DNA from: Pseudomonas sp. 10S4
Lineage (GTDB): Bacteria; Pseudomonadota; Gammaproteobacteria; Pseudomonadales; Pseudomonadaceae
NCBI RefSeq assembly: GCF_034344865.1
Contig: NZ_CP133774.1
Location: forward strand, 1,178,001 to 1,242,000
Length of the DNA: 64,000 nucleotides
Direction: 5' to 3'
Shown here: one piece after another, positions 28,513-35,804 of the stretch
Layout: each line of letters starts with the position of its first letter
Position numbering within the stretch: the stretch's first letter is position 1
The notes under the pieces: generated by a model
Told to the model about the DNA's origin: nothing
Seen by the model: only the letters and a program-made list of their open reading frames with translations
The model's database searches: none
Made by a program: the position numbers and the translations under genes

Positions 28513-31500
28513 TTAGCCGAGGGCGGTCTTCTCCAGGTGTTGCAGGATGATCGGGTACACATCCACCACCGCGTCCTTGCCGAACATGCAGTCGATATGG
28601 CCATAACCCGGCACCACCTGCCGGCTATAGCGTTCCGGCCCGTGGACCTTGCACACCCGCTCATAGGTCCTGAGCGTGCTCTCCGGCAGGTAGCACTGGT
28701 TGTCCGCCCCGCTGATAAAGCAGATCGGCATGCTCAACCGGTCGAAGTGCGACATGTAAACGTCTTCACCCTTGAAGTTCACCAGATGACCTTTGCGCAC
28801 GATCAGCGCCAGGTGCTCGAAGGTCTGCATGTTCGACTCGCCAAACAGCTCGTGCAGGTTGTCGTGCAAGGTTTCATTGAGGGTGTCGTGGCGGTACAAC
28901 GACGCGTACATGAAGGTGATGCGGTGGCACACCGGGTTGGTGCAGTAGCCCTGGGCCTCGATCCGGGCGTAGCCGTTGAGGGCTTTGTCGTAGAGTTTGT
29001 TGAACCAGTTCTCCTTGTTGTCGGCGTAGGCGGTAAGGGATTTGACCCCGATGGCATCGAGCATCCCCGGCAAGTGCAAACCGGCCTTGAGCCCGGTGGC
29101 CGTGGCCACGACGGTATCGGCGGCTATCTGCGAGCAAACCACTGACCGCACACCTTGCAGCCCGGCCAGCAGCGACATGAAGAAGGTCGTCGCGCCGTAG
29201 CAATGCACCACGCACTGCACGTCGGCGGCCTTGGTCGCTTGCTGAATCTGGCCGATGGCAGCCTTGAAGTCGTACTCGGCGATCTGGTCGCCATTCCATT
29301 CCTTCTTGCTCGCCGGCAGCAGGATGCTCACCCGCAAATCCAGCAACCAGACGTCGTACTCGTGCTTGCACAGGTACTCCAGCAGGTTGGTCTGGATGGT
29401 GTCGGTGGAGAAAATATTCGAGCCCACACCCAGCCCGTGCACCAGCATCACCGGGCCTTTGGTGCCACCCTGATAACGGGTCAGGCGCAGTTCGACGTTG
29501 TCCTCGGTCGGGAAGAAATGCACGCTCGGAGTTGGCGCATCCAGCGGTCGTTTCAGCCGCGGTGGTGCGTCGGGGTTGAAGTAGATGTCGCCGGCAAACA
29601 CGCCGCCATAACTCTCCCAGAGAATCCCGGCGAAGAACTTGCCGAAGCGTGCCAGGCCTTCAATGCGCTCGCGCTCGTTGCGGGCGTTGAGCACCTTCAT
29701 GGTGGTCATTTGCTTGGCGAAATCGGTCGGGTGAATATGCATCACCCCGGAACCGATCACTGCACCGGTCTTGTCCGGCCCGCGATACAGCGTGACGTAC
29801 AGCGTGCTGGTGTCGTGCCAGATGTTCAGCACGCCGTTGTCTTCCGGCACGGTTTTGAAGGCGCTGAAGAAATAGTCCTGGCCGTCCTCGGCGGTCAGCT
29901 TCATGTCGTATTTCATGTGGCGCACGCCGACCTGTTCTTCGTATTGCTCGAACAGGTTGAACACGCCATTGCTGGCAGTCGCGGCTGCGGCGACAGGCCG
30001 GCGCATCCAGCGTGCCAACCAGGGTGGCGGCGTGTTCCGGTTCCTTGATCATGCGGTTGAGGTCGTTGGCGGTGATGGTCAGGGTGAACTCGATGGGCGA
30101 GTTTTCCGATTCGCCGCGAGTGGCTGCTGCTTCATACAACGGCAGGTCGGTGCCCTGAGGCTGGGTGAAGTCCTTGGAGAAGTAGCCCTTCATGGTTTCG
30201 GTGAACTGCACGCCGAGGGTCGGCGGTGCGACTTGTTTGCGCGGCGCTGAAGGCAACGTGTAATCGATCTGCCAGCCACGATCAGCCGCCAGCAGGCCCA
30301 TGTTGCGCTCGCTTACTGCCGAGATGGTCAGCAGCGGATTGACCGCCAGGGATGTCGGAATCACTGCGCCGTCGGTCACGTACAAACTGGCATACACGTC
30401 AGTGCCGCTGACACCGCTGAACACCTGGCCCTTGTGGTTGACCACGCCCTGCCCCGCATCCTCGCCCATCACGCAACCGCCCAACGGGTGGACCGAAACG
30501 ATGCTGTGTTTGAGCAACTCGGTCCAGATCGGATTCTCGACCCAAACCCCGCCCAACGCCTTGGTGCTCAGGTGTAGGCGCTCATTGCCGAGTTTGACGT
30601 TTTCCTGCTCGCCAACACCGGGCCAATCGATGCGCAACTGATCCTTGCTGTCGAGCACCATCCGGCCCTTGCCGTCATCGTGGCTCATGATCAGGTAGGT
30701 CTGCATGTTGTGCAGCGCGCCGTAATACGGCCCACGCAGGAAACTTTCGGCTTCGCGCTCCTTGTATTTCATCTTGCCGGTGAAGCTGTCGTCGGTCGCC
30801 ACGCCGATCAGCTCGGCGAACCCGGCCATGCTCGGTACCATCGGCCGGCCGAGGGCGCCGGGGATCGAGCCTTCTTCGATGACCATGCGGCTGCGCCAGT
30901 CGCCTTCGGTGCGCATGTCGATGACCGAGGTGATGCACGGGCCGACCGGGTGCAGCTCCTTGGCCGGATGCGCGCCGAAACCAATGCCGTTGATCGGCTG
31001 TTCGCAGTTATGGCCGAAGCCGAGGATGTCGACCGTTGCCGCTCATGTTTTCGCCGAGCTGGTTGGAGGTCGACAGGCCTTTGTCCCGGGAACGCAGGAG
31101 GATTTCGGTGGAACCCAGGGTCCCGGCGGACACCACCACGATGTCGGCTTTGACGAACAGCGTCGGCGCCGAGAACGTCTCGCGACCGCTGTCCAGGTAT
31201 TGGAAGTGCACGATCCAGCCATCGCCGTCGCGCTCCAGGTGCCGCACTTCGGCCTGGCAGAAAATCTCCGCGCCGTGGTTCGAGGCGTCTGGCAGATAGT
31301 TCATCAGCGTGGTGTTCTTGGCCTTGTTGTTACAGCCCGAGACGCAGTCGCCGCAGTGGTTGCAAGGCAGTTGTTCGACGCCGACGTGGTTGAGGTTGTT
31401 CGGCAGCTTGTCGAAGGTCACGTTGATCGGCGGCCGGTAAAAGTGCGCGCCTTGCTTGAGGTAATCCGCCGATTTTTTGTTGGCTTCGAGTTTGGGCAAT

Positions 31501-31964
31501 ACCGGCGAGGTGCTGGGATACGGCATGGGCTTGAGCATTTCCCGGGCCCGGGCGTAGCCGTCCTTGAGCAAGGTGTCGCGATGTTCGCGCACCGCCAGCG
31601 GCCAGCGCGGATCGTCGAACACACCGGGTTCCGGTTCCAGGGCGACGTTGGCGTTGATCAGCGAGGTGCCGCCCAAGCCACAACCGACCACCACGTTCTG
31701 CTGGGCATTGACGTGCAGGTCGAACAACCCGGTACGCGAGCCGATGTGGCCGTCCGGGTCATGCACCTGCAACTCCTCGGTGGCCGCGATCATGGTGTTG
31801 GGGTACTCGCCGGGCTGCATTTCCCGACCGCGCTCCAGCAGGCACACCCGCTTACCGGCCCGGGACAGGCGCGAAGCCGCGATCCCGCCGCCATAGCCGG
31901 AGCCGATGACGATCACGTCGTAGTGTTCCTTGATGTCGCTGATGGGCGTTGCGATCCGGGTCAT
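28513..31964 (-). CDS. GMC oxidoreductase fused to an alpha/beta hydrolase (two frameshifts)
   Basis: Removing an extra A at 31032 and another at 29995 joins three open frames into one 1149-residue protein. N-terminal FAD motif VIVIGSGYGGG (about 18-28); cholesterol-oxidase-like cysteine block CNHCGDCVSGCNNKAKNT (about 199-216); GMC C-terminal HPLGGC near the end of the oxidoreductase part. A linker of about 150 residues leads to a hydrolase domain with VHGLGVG, a nucleophile elbow HCYGA (Cys at about 921 rather than Ser), ISGADNQCY and GYGHIDC (probable Asp and His). No signal peptide is obvious. The substrate may be a sterol, terpenoid or other alcohol/ester; this is inference. First gene of the cluster with the cytochrome. 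Confidence 0.82.
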
Positions 31965-32230: not shown

Positions 32231-32239
32231 TGTGGATAA
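32231..32239 (-). other. DnaA box (perfect TTATCCACA)
   Basis: TGTGGATAA on the plus strand, the complement of the consensus. It is the only inverted member of the array. Confidence 0.7.
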
Positions 32240-32377
32240 GTAACGGTTGTCCTTGGTAAATGGTTAGTGAAGACAGGCGGCAGATTGAAGTCAAGGAAGT
32301 GCCTTAGACCTGTATGAAATCTGATCTATTACGTTCAGGCCTATGCGGGGCGTGGCTTGTAGGGTTTAGCGAACAAG

Positions 32378-32386
32378 TTATCCACA
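32378..32386 (+). other. DnaA box (perfect TTATCCACA)
   Basis: Preceded by GCGAACA and two bases, the extended motif shared by four boxes of the array. A near-consensus TTATCCAGA follows at 32464. Confidence 0.7.
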
Positions 32387-32494
32387 CCTCCACCCACAGC
32401 AAATGGGGACAAGTATGGATTTACTGGGAATACGCTTGAAAATTAGTGAAGAAAAACCGTGACTTATCCAGAAGCAGGGTTCTGGATGGCAATT

Positions 32495-32632
32495 GGTTGT
32501 TTTTTGATCTACAGCCTACAAGCCATGTTTTATATGGGCTGCAGAGGATGGCGAACACCTTATCCACAGAAGCGCCAACAGACTTTGGGGGCAACTTTGA
32601 CGGCTCTGTGGAAAACCTGCCTAAGGCTTGAT
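32495..32632 (+). repeat. Tandem DnaA-box unit 1
   Basis: Begins GGTTGTTTTTT; TTTATATGGGCTGCAG follows, then GCGAACA-CC-TTATCCACAGAAG (box at 32560-32568). The box begins exactly 65 bases after the unit start, as in units 2 and 3. Confidence 0.75.
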
Positions 32633-32676
32633 AAATCGGGGTTTACAGGCGGTTTGTCGGCGTAAAACAGTGATTT

Positions 32677-32837
32677 GGTTGTTTTTTAATCAGACGCGTC
32701 ACAACCCCGGTTTATATGGCCTGCAGCGGACAGCGAACATCTTATCCACAGAAGCGCCAACAGAGATTGGGGGCAAGTATTGGCGCGCGGGCAAAGTTAT
32801 CCTCGGGAAAAAGCTCGAAAAAACCACGGGTTAGGCT
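32677..32837 (+). repeat. Tandem DnaA-box unit 2
   Basis: Begins GGTTGTTTTTT, 182 bases after unit 1; TTTATATGGCCTGCAG follows, then GCGAACA-TC-TTATCCACAGAAG (box at 32742-32750). A degenerate TTATCCTCG is at 32797. Confidence 0.75.
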
Positions 32838-32950
32838 GGTTGTTTTTTGTACGAAGGGTTGCGGGGCTTGATTGGCGTGGGGTGTAGCGAGGGGCGAACA
32901 TGTTATCCACAGAAGGACTAACAGGGATTGTGGGTAAATCCAAAAATCCC
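32838..32950 (+). repeat. Tandem DnaA-box unit 3
   Basis: Begins GGTTGTTTTTT, 161 bases after unit 2; the middle has diverged, then GCGAACA-TG-TTATCCACAGAAG (box at 32903-32911). Confidence 0.7.
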
Positions 32951-32997
32951 TGGGGATTGTGGGTATGGCCATAACCTTTGATCGACATCGAACAAAT

Positions 32998-33085
32998 GTG
33001 GGAGCGAGTTTGCTCGCGAAGGCGGTGAATCAGGCGACATTGATGTTGGATGTGACGGCCTCTTCGCGAGCAAGCCCGCTCCCAC
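32998..33085. repeat. REP pair, type A (A7)
   Basis: Left arm has GAGCGAGTTTGCTCGCGAA (two changes), right arm the standard core inverted. It follows the DnaA-box array. Confidence 0.8.
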
Positions 33086-33105
33086 AGGGATTGGGTTCAC
33101 ATGCC

Positions 33106-33672: not shown

Positions 33673-33683
33673 TATTTCCCCCT

Positions 33684-33771
33684 GTGGGAGCGGGCTTGCT
33701 CGCGAAAGCGGTGACTCAGTCGACATCAATGTTGAATGTCAGTCCGCTTTCGCGAGCAAGCCCGCTCCCAC
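33684..33771. repeat. REP pair, type A (A8)
   Basis: Facing GAGCGGGCTTGCTCGCGAA cores between the etfB-like gene and the GNAT gene, 11 bases before the GNAT start. Confidence 0.85.
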
Positions 33772-33797
33772 ATTATTAGATCTACGCTGGTTATCTG

Positions 33798-34568
33798 TTA
33801 GCGGACGACGCCTTCTTCAATCAACAACTTCAGAATTGCTTCGGCCCCGGCTTGCGCAGTGACGCCTTTAAGCACCTGCCCGCCCCCACCGCTGGCCTTG
33901 GCCGTCGCGGCTTTCATGCGGTCTGCGCCGCTTTTGGCCTTGATCACTTTCAGGCGTTTAGGCCGTGGTTTGGCCGGTTGCAGGGTTGCGACCGCCAGCA
34001 GTTCATCGTCGATGACTTCGACGTCTTCAGCCTGCAACACCCCACGCCGGGCTGGGCCGTAAGCGCTTTGCCGAGGCTTCGGCGCTGCGTTATCCACAGT
34101 CGCCAGAAACGGCAGCCGTACTTTCAAGCGACGGCGTTGACCACGTGGCAACGCTTGCAACACCAGGGCCGAATTACCGTCGATGGATTCGACCTGAGCC
34201 AGTCCCACCACCAGCGGCCAGCCGAGGCTTTCAGCCAGCAGGAACGGCAACATGCCAGAGCCCTCACCGGTTTCAGCCTGGCTGCCGGTCAGCACGACCT
34301 GCGCCCCGGCATCGCGAAGATAAGCAGTCAACGCCGGCAGCGCGTCGGCGCCTTCCGGCTGTTCCAGAACATGCAGTTGTTCCAGGCCCATGCCCAAATA
34401 GGCACGCAATGCAGGTTCCGCGACGTCGCCGGCATGCAGCACTTGCAGGTTATCCCCAGCCAGTTGCAGGCCCAGTTCCACGGCGCGCGCGTCCTGTTCG
34501 GCGCGGCGTGGCCGGCCGGAGGTCGGGTGGGCGCCGATGGACACCAGGCTGATGACGTTAGTACTCAT
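33798..34568 (-). CDS. etfB: Electron transfer flavoprotein beta-subunit-like protein of the dimethylglycine operon
   Basis: 256 residues, ETF-beta fold (VSIGAHPTSGRPRR...AVELGLQLAG; GSQAETGEGSGMLPFLLAESLGW at about 98-120, shown in part as TGEGSGMLPFLLAESLGW). It pairs with the downstream-numbered EtfA-like protein to pass electrons from DgcAB towards the quinone pool. It is the last gene of the minus-strand run dipeptidase-DUF5943-dgcA-dgcB-etfA-etfB. It is a specialised copy rather than the housekeeping EtfB. A perfect TTATCCACA lies within the gene at 34090. Confidence 0.88.
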   Translation of the reverse strand: MSTNVISLVSIGAHPTSGRPRRAEQDARAVELGLQLAGDNLQVLHAGDVAEPALRAYLGMGLEQLHVLEQPEGADALPALTAYLRDAGAQVVLTGSQAETGEGSGMLPFLLAESLGWPLVVGLAQVESIDGNSALVLQALPRGQRRRLKVRLPFLATVDNAAPKPRQSAYGPARRGVLQAEDVEVIDDELLAVATLQPAKPRPKRLKVIKAKSGADRMKAATAKASGGGGQVLKGVTAQAGAEAILKLLIEEGVVR

Positions 34569-34583
34569 AACCCTTTCCTTCCC

Positions 34584-35804
34584 TTAAGCCGCATCGCGCT
34601 TGGCGTCGTTGCGATAAGCCGCTATCGCATCGATCAAGGCTTGAAGAATCTCGGCGCTCTCGCCGATCACCGACAGGTCGGCCCGTTTGATCATGTCGCA
34701 GCCAGGATCGAGGTTGATCGCCACCACCTTGTCGCAGGCACCGATGCCTTGCAGGTGCTGAATCGCCCCGGAAATCCCCACGGCCACATAAACCCGTGCG
34801 GTGACCCAGGTGCCCGACGCACCGACCTGACGGTCGCGGGCCATGAACCCATCGTCCACCGCCACCCGCGATGCGCCTTCGGTAGCGCCCAATGCTTCGG
34901 CTGTCCTGTGGAAAAGTCCCCAGTCCTTGACCCCGTTGCCGCCAGAGAAAATGAACTCAGCTTCGGCCATTGGAATCGCCGCCGGGTCCACCGCCACCGC
35001 GCCCAAATCTTCGATACGTGACAGGCTACGAACCACGGCTGTGGATAACTCCACCGGCAAGGCTTCGTGACGGGTTTCGCTGACAGGTTCGGCGCATTCA
35101 ACAGCGGCCAGAATCAAGCGTGCTACCGGGCGCGCAAGGTCTTGCAAGCCCGCACCGGCGCGGCCGATGCATTCCTGGTCCTTGACCTGCCAGACCCGCG
35201 TGGCCGGGCGTTCGCCCAGTGCCGCGGCAAAGCGTCGACCGAGTTCGCCACCACCGCTGCGGCTGTCCGGCAGCAACCAGTGACGCGGGTTGAACTGGTT
35301 ATCCACAGCCCGCAGGCCCTGGACGCGTTGTTCCGGTGCATAACCGCTGAATTCATCACCATCGAGCACCAGCAAGCGATCGACACCTGCGGTGGCGAAA
35401 GCGTTTTCTTTGTGTTCGCCGAAAACCACTGCCAGCACCGCGCCGTCGTTGCCGGCCAACTGATGAGCGAGGCCGAGCAAGTCGCGGTCGTGGCTGCTCA
35501 AGCGACCGCCGACCATGTCCGGCACCACGCAGATGTAAAACGCTGGTGCAGGCACTTGATGCAGCGGCAGTTGCACTTCAACGGCGGCCGAACGTTTGGT
35601 CGCCCCGCCCTGCTGTGCGCCGCTGCGGTCGATGCGCTTGATGCCGTTAGGCCCGATAAAACCAATGCCATGCAGATTCTTGCGGATGACGCCGTTCGGG
35701 CCCATCCAGCTGTGTTGCGCCGGTTGCATCGCCGCGTGCAGCGGGTGCAAACGGTTACGGGCAATCCATTCGGCGCGGGGGTCGCGGCGGATAATGTCGC
35801 TCAT
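34584..35804 (-). CDS. etfA: Electron transfer flavoprotein alpha-subunit-like protein of the dimethylglycine operon
   Basis: 406 residues, longer than housekeeping EtfA (about 310) because of an N-terminal extension of about 90 residues. The C-terminal FAD-binding domain is clear: SRIEDLGAVAVDPAAIPMAEAEFIFSGGNGV region, GASGTWVTARVYVAVGISGAIQH and NLDPGCDMIKRADLSVIGES (quoted in part). Start at 35804 overlaps the dgcB stop by one base (TGATG), with GGAGG upstream, so the two are coupled. Expected to dimerise with the EtfB-like protein and accept electrons from DgcB or DgcA. Confidence 0.88.
   Translation of the reverse strand: MSDIIRRDPRAEWIARNRLHPLHAAMQPAQHSWMGPNGVIRKNLHGIGFIGPNGIKRIDRSGAQQGGATKRSAAVEVQLPLHQVPAPAFYICVVPDMVGGRLSSHDRDLLGLAHQLAGNDGAVLAVVFGEHKENAFATAGVDRLLVLDGDEFSGYAPEQRVQGLRAVDNQFNPRHWLLPDSRSGGGELGRRFAAALGERPATRVWQVKDQECIGRAGAGLQDLARPVARLILAAVECAEPVSETRHEALPVELSTAVVRSLSRIEDLGAVAVDPAAIPMAEAEFIFSGGNGVKDWGLFHRTAEALGATEGASRVAVDDGFMARDRQVGASGTWVTARVYVAVGISGAIQHLQGIGACDKVVAINLDPGCDMIKRADLSVIGESAEILQALIDAIAAYRNDAKRDAA

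Follow-up and report, generated by a model that had tools for sequence, protein, structure and literature searches.

A tandem array of putative Fis-linked DARS-type elements in the chromosome of Pseudomonas sp. 10S4

Within the window, the whole 64,000-nucleotide stretch of DNA analysed here (bases 1178001-1242000 of the single-contig 7.27-Mb chromosome of Pseudomonas sp. 10S4), a 700-bp stretch without a recognisable protein gene holds an array of DnaA boxes that, judged from its sequence, probably comprises four tandem Fis-linked DARS-type elements serving the DnaA pool and no neighbouring gene, with recharging of DnaA gated by Fis. In E. coli, DARS1 promotes the exchange of ADP for ATP on DnaA, as does DARS2 together with IHF and Fis; datA promotes hydrolysis, according to passages of PMC4245941, PMC8682772, PMC4585315 and PMC10380432. 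In the open-licence literature searched, as far as titles, opening abstract lines and passages go, accounts of this ATP/ADP cycle concern E. coli and its relatives; judged by title and start of abstract, none of the papers among the matches listed deals with DARS or datA in Pseudomonas, and the passages of PMC4285127 and PMC10218098, which contain both words, hold no DARS or datA in Pseudomonas. The DARS2 core is described as conserved among gamma-proteobacteria related to E. coli (a passage of PMC4245941), and a passage of PMC10380432, citing an earlier paper, places similar sequences in many proteobacteria. Because such sequences are stated for many proteobacteria, a Pseudomonas homologue may already figure in that earlier paper. 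The paper in question is presumably one of 2009.

The array opens with a reversed perfect DnaA box at 32231-32239 (minus strand), 147 bp ahead of the first unit box; many array loci, not all, likewise have a reversed box some 145-148 bp ahead of their first box. Four units follow on the plus strand. Unit 1 (32312-32412) carries a relaxed Fis-type site (32312-32326), a perfect box (provisionally III, 32378-32386), a weak box (provisionally II, 32390-32398, CCACCCACA) and a reversed box (provisionally I, 32404-32412, TGGGGACAA). Unit 2 (32495-32594) repeats this order with a Fis-type site at 32495-32509, GCGAACA at 32551-32557, a perfect box at 32560-32568, a weak box at 32572-32580 (GCGCCAACA) and a reversed box at 32586-32594 (TGGGGGCAA). 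The corresponding elements of unit 3 (32677-32776) are a Fis-type site at 32677-32691 and perfect, weak and reversed boxes at 32742-32750, 32754-32762 and 32768-32776, and those of unit 4 (32838-32937) a Fis-type site at 32838-32852 and boxes at 32903-32911, 32915-32923 and 32929-32937, the last with one mismatch to the consensus. The perfect boxes of successive units are 182, 182 and 161 bp apart. The preliminary description had listed five exact TTATCCACA boxes, at 32231 (minus) and at 32378, 32560, 32742 and 32903 (plus), and all five are present, as are the extended motif GCGAACA-N2-TTATCCACA at four of them (four copies genome-wide, all in the array) and the unit starts GGTTGTTTTTT at 32495, 32677 and 32838, exactly 65 bp ahead of their boxes and 182 and 161 bp apart. 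Of its two near matches, that at 32464 is TTATCCAGA; that at 32797 (TTATCCTCG) has two mismatches and is therefore weak. Small open reading frames across the array were considered and rejected, since unit spacings differ by 10-11 bp and reading frames are not kept from unit to unit.

A feature that links these units to DARS is the geometry of the core: beyond each of the four perfect boxes (offset 0) lie two partners, one at +12 that is forward and degenerate and one at +26 that is reversed. Among 216 non-redundant array units selected by the perfect box alone, +12 is the best extra forward offset (4.35 of 9; median 2.25) and +26 the best reverse offset (6.33; median 2.2). Two E. coli stretches, which from their map places we take to be DARS1 (bioD-uvrB) and DARS2, have the same 0/12/26 offsets, the first reading TAATACACA-TGG-TTATCCACA-GGAAT-AGTGGATAA and the second TCTTACACC-ATG-TTATCCACA-GAAAG-CTGGGATAA. 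Both fit the arrangement given in a passage of PMC10380432, in which the head-to-head box pair is called essential to and characteristic of DARS. The 169 kb of E. coli sequence examined contain 23 TTWTNCACA boxes, and both partner boxes occur only at the two DARS central boxes, by cut-offs fixed after DARS had been seen. An alternative outer DARS2 box on the plus strand, TTTTTCACA, was dropped; the core that DARS1 and DARS2 share lies on the opposite strand. In sequence terms the array units possess the three boxes of a DARS, two of them head-to-head, with a central box that is weak.

The resemblance is closer to DARS1 than to DARS2. In DARS1 the last of the three boxes is likewise reversed and head-to-head with the central one, but there is a single core per locus and it is the central box that is perfect, whereas the outer box is perfect in the Pseudomonas array; a passage of PMC4585315 states that DARS1 needs no protein factor. 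DARS2 shares the core offsets, with partner boxes matching at 5 and 6 of 9 positions, and differs in having one core and IHF sites; its fit is poorer than that of DARS1, the best reversed match being at +24 and the +12 partner tying with two other offsets. DARS2 also includes Fis and weak-box clusters, according to passages of PMC4245941 and PMC8682772.

Sequence models point the same way. The unit model (R1), made from sequence only, includes the +12 and +26 columns and units of this array; run on E. coli it gave no match at DARS, and a shorter core model did match. The 48-bp core model (R2) was built without any unit of this array and without E. coli sequence, from members found through R1, and in the window its top four matches are the four array units (core-model E-values of 9e-7, 5.5e-5, 4.1e-5 and 5.5e-5 for units 1 to 4). 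In the 169 kb of E. coli, a background that includes three 50-kb stretches, R2 places DARS1 at the top (17.7 bits, E 3.7e-4) and, joint second at 12.7 bits, the central part of DARS2 and a site at the edge of oriC, all with modest E-values. Within the source genome all 10 of the 10 unit boxes have a reversed partner and 9 have a Fis-type site, compared with 0 and 1 among 51 other boxes examined, in a unit set picked by R1 (five of its six units outside the array also being in R2). Eighteen further units, of which other families of the order supplied 16, score 8.44 at +12 and 7.5 at +26. These 18 units, the own-genome set and R2 are not wholly independent tests, because all were picked via R1 with its +12/+26 columns; the tests on array units and on E. 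coli are independent.

Outside the core, the unit consensus, built from 245 non-redundant units, has conserved blocks at -67 to -50, -24 to -16, -9 to -3, the box itself, +13 to +21 and +24 to +34. The block at -65 fits the Fis consensus, printed as GNNYANNNNNTRNNC in passages of PMC4585315 and PMC8682772; the three full Fis sites of the window each differ from this form by a single A to G change, and the site of unit 1, at -66, is looser. A relaxed, A/T-centred Fis pattern, picked after the consensus had been seen, occurs six times in the window, three of them in the array, and at 3.38 per kb within arrays vs 0.039 per kb outside. At -65/-66 the exact printed form is present in 159 of 444 units and the relaxed form in 391 of 444 (means at other offsets 0.29 and 1.47), and units outside the array carry the relaxed form in 15 and the exact form in 12 of 18 cases. 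As sequence, Fis-type sites near the core resemble what is found at DARS2, on a side that differs from E. coli: by our own reading of the source passages, the Fis region of DARS2 in E. coli is bordered by box V, and the array site lies opposite the box V side of the core. The exact IHF consensus is present in 7 of 110 arrays and absent in 103, and the same pattern is blank at E. coli DARS2 too.

The spacing of units is itself structured. Three or more chained boxes were present at 110 loci (probably including duplicates), which reduce to 57 spacing patterns with 17 spacing clusters, at 20, 55, 66, 106, 125, 129, 137, 150, 161, 171, 182, 192, 259, 320, 331, 365 and 387 bp. These clusters follow a period of 10.75 bp (R 0.74), and 6 of 20000 random sets were equally good. 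Helical phasing as a general rule was rejected, as it holds for the array family only; the other unit loci give R 0.15.

The concern that the boxes might be unconserved in related strains is set aside by the 78 of 119 genus genomes that carry the exact extended motif, with one to four copies among the matches listed; in a sample of the order it is found in 2 of 145 genomes, one being the source genome. Forty-one genus genomes and three from two other genera make up a motif-less set of 44, and 36 of these have EtfB. Around etfB, two or more forward boxes lie downstream in 11 of the 36, and in 18 the stretch fetched contains no exact box; of the remaining seven, four (G081, G065, G094 and G101) have model matches either at etfB or no more than about 12 kb away. 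In G026, another of the seven, the model matches are on another contig, next to a gbcA homologue.

A setting between a GMC gene and a GNAT gene had been proposed for the array, and the second part of it proves inessential, because EtfB is present in 28 of the 31 right flanks with enough sequence and GNAT in 11. Of 64 loci whose left flank is long enough, 18 have the GMC gene adjacent on that side, and in some lineages the arrays adjoin gbcA. In the window the GMC-oxidoreductase/hydrolase gene (28513-31964, minus strand) is split over three frames of 511, 460 and 330 codons. At L042, L056 and L095 it is one open stretch of about 1150-1200 codons; L091 has no such long GMC open stretch. The window copy may be a broken gene or may contain sequencing errors; the array beside it is intact. 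Flanking the GNAT gene of the window are two copies, 83% alike, of a 90-bp palindromic element (32997-33086 and 33683-33772), which we presume to be of the REP/REPIN kind.

The position of the array relative to oriC is also conserved. In agreement with the preliminary description, it is not the standard oriC, dnaA being 555 kb away, and it is oriC-proximal, at 7.6 centisomes, with its boxes pointing toward dnaA. On 13 chromosomes (the main contig of G052 and 12 single-contig assemblies whose length is known) the distance between array and dnaA is 8.41 +- 0.50 centisomes, about one twelfth of the chromosome, and all 13 arrays point toward dnaA; the survey covered 28 of the 78 motif genomes and left out five more single-contig assemblies with only rounded lengths. 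In G018, one of the 13, the array is mirrored on the other arm, and in five drafts with array and dnaA on one contig the two are 401-576 kb apart. A conserved distance from oriC, as in a DARS, is the rule from which one single-contig genome, G029, departs, its array lying 1.1 Mb from dnaA; general synteny may explain part of it. Two datA boxes of E. coli, at a place that we take to be beside the glyVXY tRNA genes, have no reversed partner at +14 (4 and 3 of 9). In centisomes from oriC the array, at about 8.4, comes nearer to datA (10.1) than to DARS2 (20.6) or DARS1 (32.9), and datA, as described in a passage of PMC4585315, likewise has several DnaA boxes about 10 centisomes from oriC, differing in its IHF site. 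Chromosomal position matters for the E. coli loci, according to a passage of PMC5010248. The array appears to be DARS-type by anatomy and datA-like by oriC distance. The earlier label of a datA/DARS-like locus was largely right, and the 0/12/26 core and Fis-type sites point to DARS over datA.

How far the clustering exceeds chance depends on the abundance of boxes in the genome as a whole, where exact TTATCCACA occurs 163 times and a reversed control pattern 24 times (about sevenfold fewer). The 0.2-0.5 perfect boxes per 64 kb allowed for at the outset was an understatement, 163 genome-wide corresponding to about 1.4. Boxes crowd near oriC and fall off steeply from it: of the 163, 31 lie within 25 kb and only 2 at the far end, 2.5-3.64 Mb away; E. 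coli boxes accumulate there likewise (a passage of PMC12371093). In simulations that retained this crowding (60-kb smoothing; 2000 runs), five boxes in 700 bp were reached in 2 of 2000 runs and eight in 3.1 kb also in 2 of 2000. At the 700-bp scale the array is the densest cluster of the genome, with five boxes vs four at oriC; at 300 bp oriC, with four, is the denser. The window has 21 matches at up to one mismatch vs 5.95 expected, the largest of 100 shuffles giving 13. A strand bias of the boxes suggested by a partial listing was gone once all 163 were counted. The genome's own oriC resembles the array in its perfect TTATCCACA boxes; it differs in that 0 of the 4 perfect boxes just upstream of dnaA have a +26 reversed partner, in having no strict Fis-type site and in possessing a strongly A/T-rich stretch.

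Five additional exact boxes lie in the window, three of them to the right of the array within its usual neighbours etfB (33798-34568) and etfA (34584-35804), both on the minus strand and named from their translated reading frames. The box in etfB (34090-34098, plus strand) is moderately conserved, the 9-mer being kept in 62 of 113 EtfB rows. In etfA the box at 35299-35307 (plus) is kept in 41 of 43 rows and that at 35040-35048 (minus), encoded by TTA TCC ACA with the rare codon TTA, in 36 of 43. When the 326 codons of 37 distinct EtfA sequences from array-bearing loci were scored by synonymous conservation times rarity, codons 252, 254 and 253 of the 35040 box ranked first, third and fourth, and codon 165 of the 35299 box second; the leucine codon TTA is kept in 92% of the sequences. 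Retention of both etfA boxes through rare synonymous codons points to selection at the DNA level within the gene.

Units are not confined to the array. R1 was run on 36 genomes, most of them motif-less, and all 36 match at E ≤ 0.01; because G124, from another family, also matches (best 5.7e-5), only matches at E ≤ 1e-6 were counted, and these occur in 33 of 35 family genomes, with none in G054 and G118. In the source genome, among the best 10 of 12 matches, further units lie at 0.861, 1.170, 2.49 and 2.67 Mb, making at least four sister loci within about 0.9 Mb of oriC. Two of these (G000:C1:860999 and 2671809) are almost exactly mirror-symmetric about oriC, at -905 and +906 kb, which may be coincidence. 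The loci fetched range from pairs up to seven or nine unit matches, and by best NCBIfam match their neighbours are ureG, ureE, livM, rarD and gbcA, with livF and yigZ below the curated cut-off. Across the order, 21 of 145 genomes match at E ≤ 1e-6 (five of five from the family and 16 of 140 others), and 15 of the 16 other-family genomes have a single match. Their units mostly read TTATCCACx-N3-TTATCCACA-N5-TGTGGxxAA. Individual loci vary in layout: L271 has seven unit matches with spacings alternating between about 166 and about 197, L276 six boxes mostly 225-227 bp apart, L277 nine unit matches with few perfect boxes, and L308, from another family of the order, three near-identical units about 670 bp apart.

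The main rival to a DARS-type function, which we judge unlikely, is that the array is a sink that titrates DnaA or, like datA, promotes hydrolysis of DnaA-ATP after its early replication, restraining initiation. A sink would suit the densest perfect-box cluster of the genome at 700 bp, the keeping of perfect boxes at the outer position with the central DARS box weak, the datA-like distance from oriC, and the rare-codon boxes in etfA, which add sites without a DARS core. Titration alone, however, fails to explain the +26 head-to-head box, the +12 box, the Fis-type sites and the orientation, and the scarcity of exact IHF sites in the arrays, set against the IHF site of datA (a passage of PMC4585315), is a weak negative.

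The remaining alternatives seem considerably less probable. That the array regulates a neighbouring gene, as a promoter or other control region governed by DnaA and Fis, is improbable: the start of the GMC-oxidoreductase gene does lie on one side of it and GNAT/etfB on the other, and DnaA and Fis also act as transcription factors, but the neighbours vary between lineages, the GMC gene is broken in three frames here beside an intact array, and an Rfam search of the array gave no structured-RNA match. A cryptic or secondary replication origin, the cryptic replicator of the preliminary description, would account for several DnaA boxes together with Fis-type sites; we consider it very improbable in view of a GC content of 0.485, the lack of a stretch as A/T-rich as the one at oriC (66% vs 82% A+T in the best 50 bp) and the spread of units across several loci per genome. 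Just as improbable is a dispersed repeat propagated by transposition or gene conversion with no role in replication, which several unit loci per genome and the REP-like elements close by might suggest, but against which stand the small number of fetched loci per genome, the synteny of many of them between species, the conserved core offsets, the conserved orientation and distance of the array and the rare-codon boxes in etfA.

If the array does function as a set of DARS-type elements, DnaA-ADP would bind the head-to-head box pair, the perfect outer box would hold the DnaA-ADP assembly together, and ADP would be released. Loss of ADP would leave more DnaA-ATP ahead of the next initiation. Fis, abundant during fast growth, would gate this recharging, and a site about 8 centisomes from oriC would keep the dosage of the array high in the early part of the cycle. 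The array units, with a perfect outer box and a weak central one, are the reverse of E. coli and other-family units, and for this reason the strength or the direction of the effect may have shifted.

A wider reading, which we offer tentatively and stop short of calling probable, is that Pseudomonadaceae may possess distributed, Fis-gated DARS-type elements at several loci per genome, many of them syntenic and most lying no more than about 1 Mb from oriC, one of which has multiplied into a tandem array (four units here, seven to nine elsewhere) that would bind DnaA as one large complex, helically phased in the array family and with extra boxes in neighbouring coding sequence. If so, recharging would hinge on how many copies of the core there are and where they lie, and not on a single DARS1 or DARS2. 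The sequences define a candidate tandem, multi-locus DARS-type system in Pseudomonas, which the core model ties to E. coli DARS1, and how Pseudomonas recharges or restrains DnaA becomes a directly testable question. The natural variation among these loci, from one to nine units with spacings in helical steps, offers material for the study of DnaA assembly.
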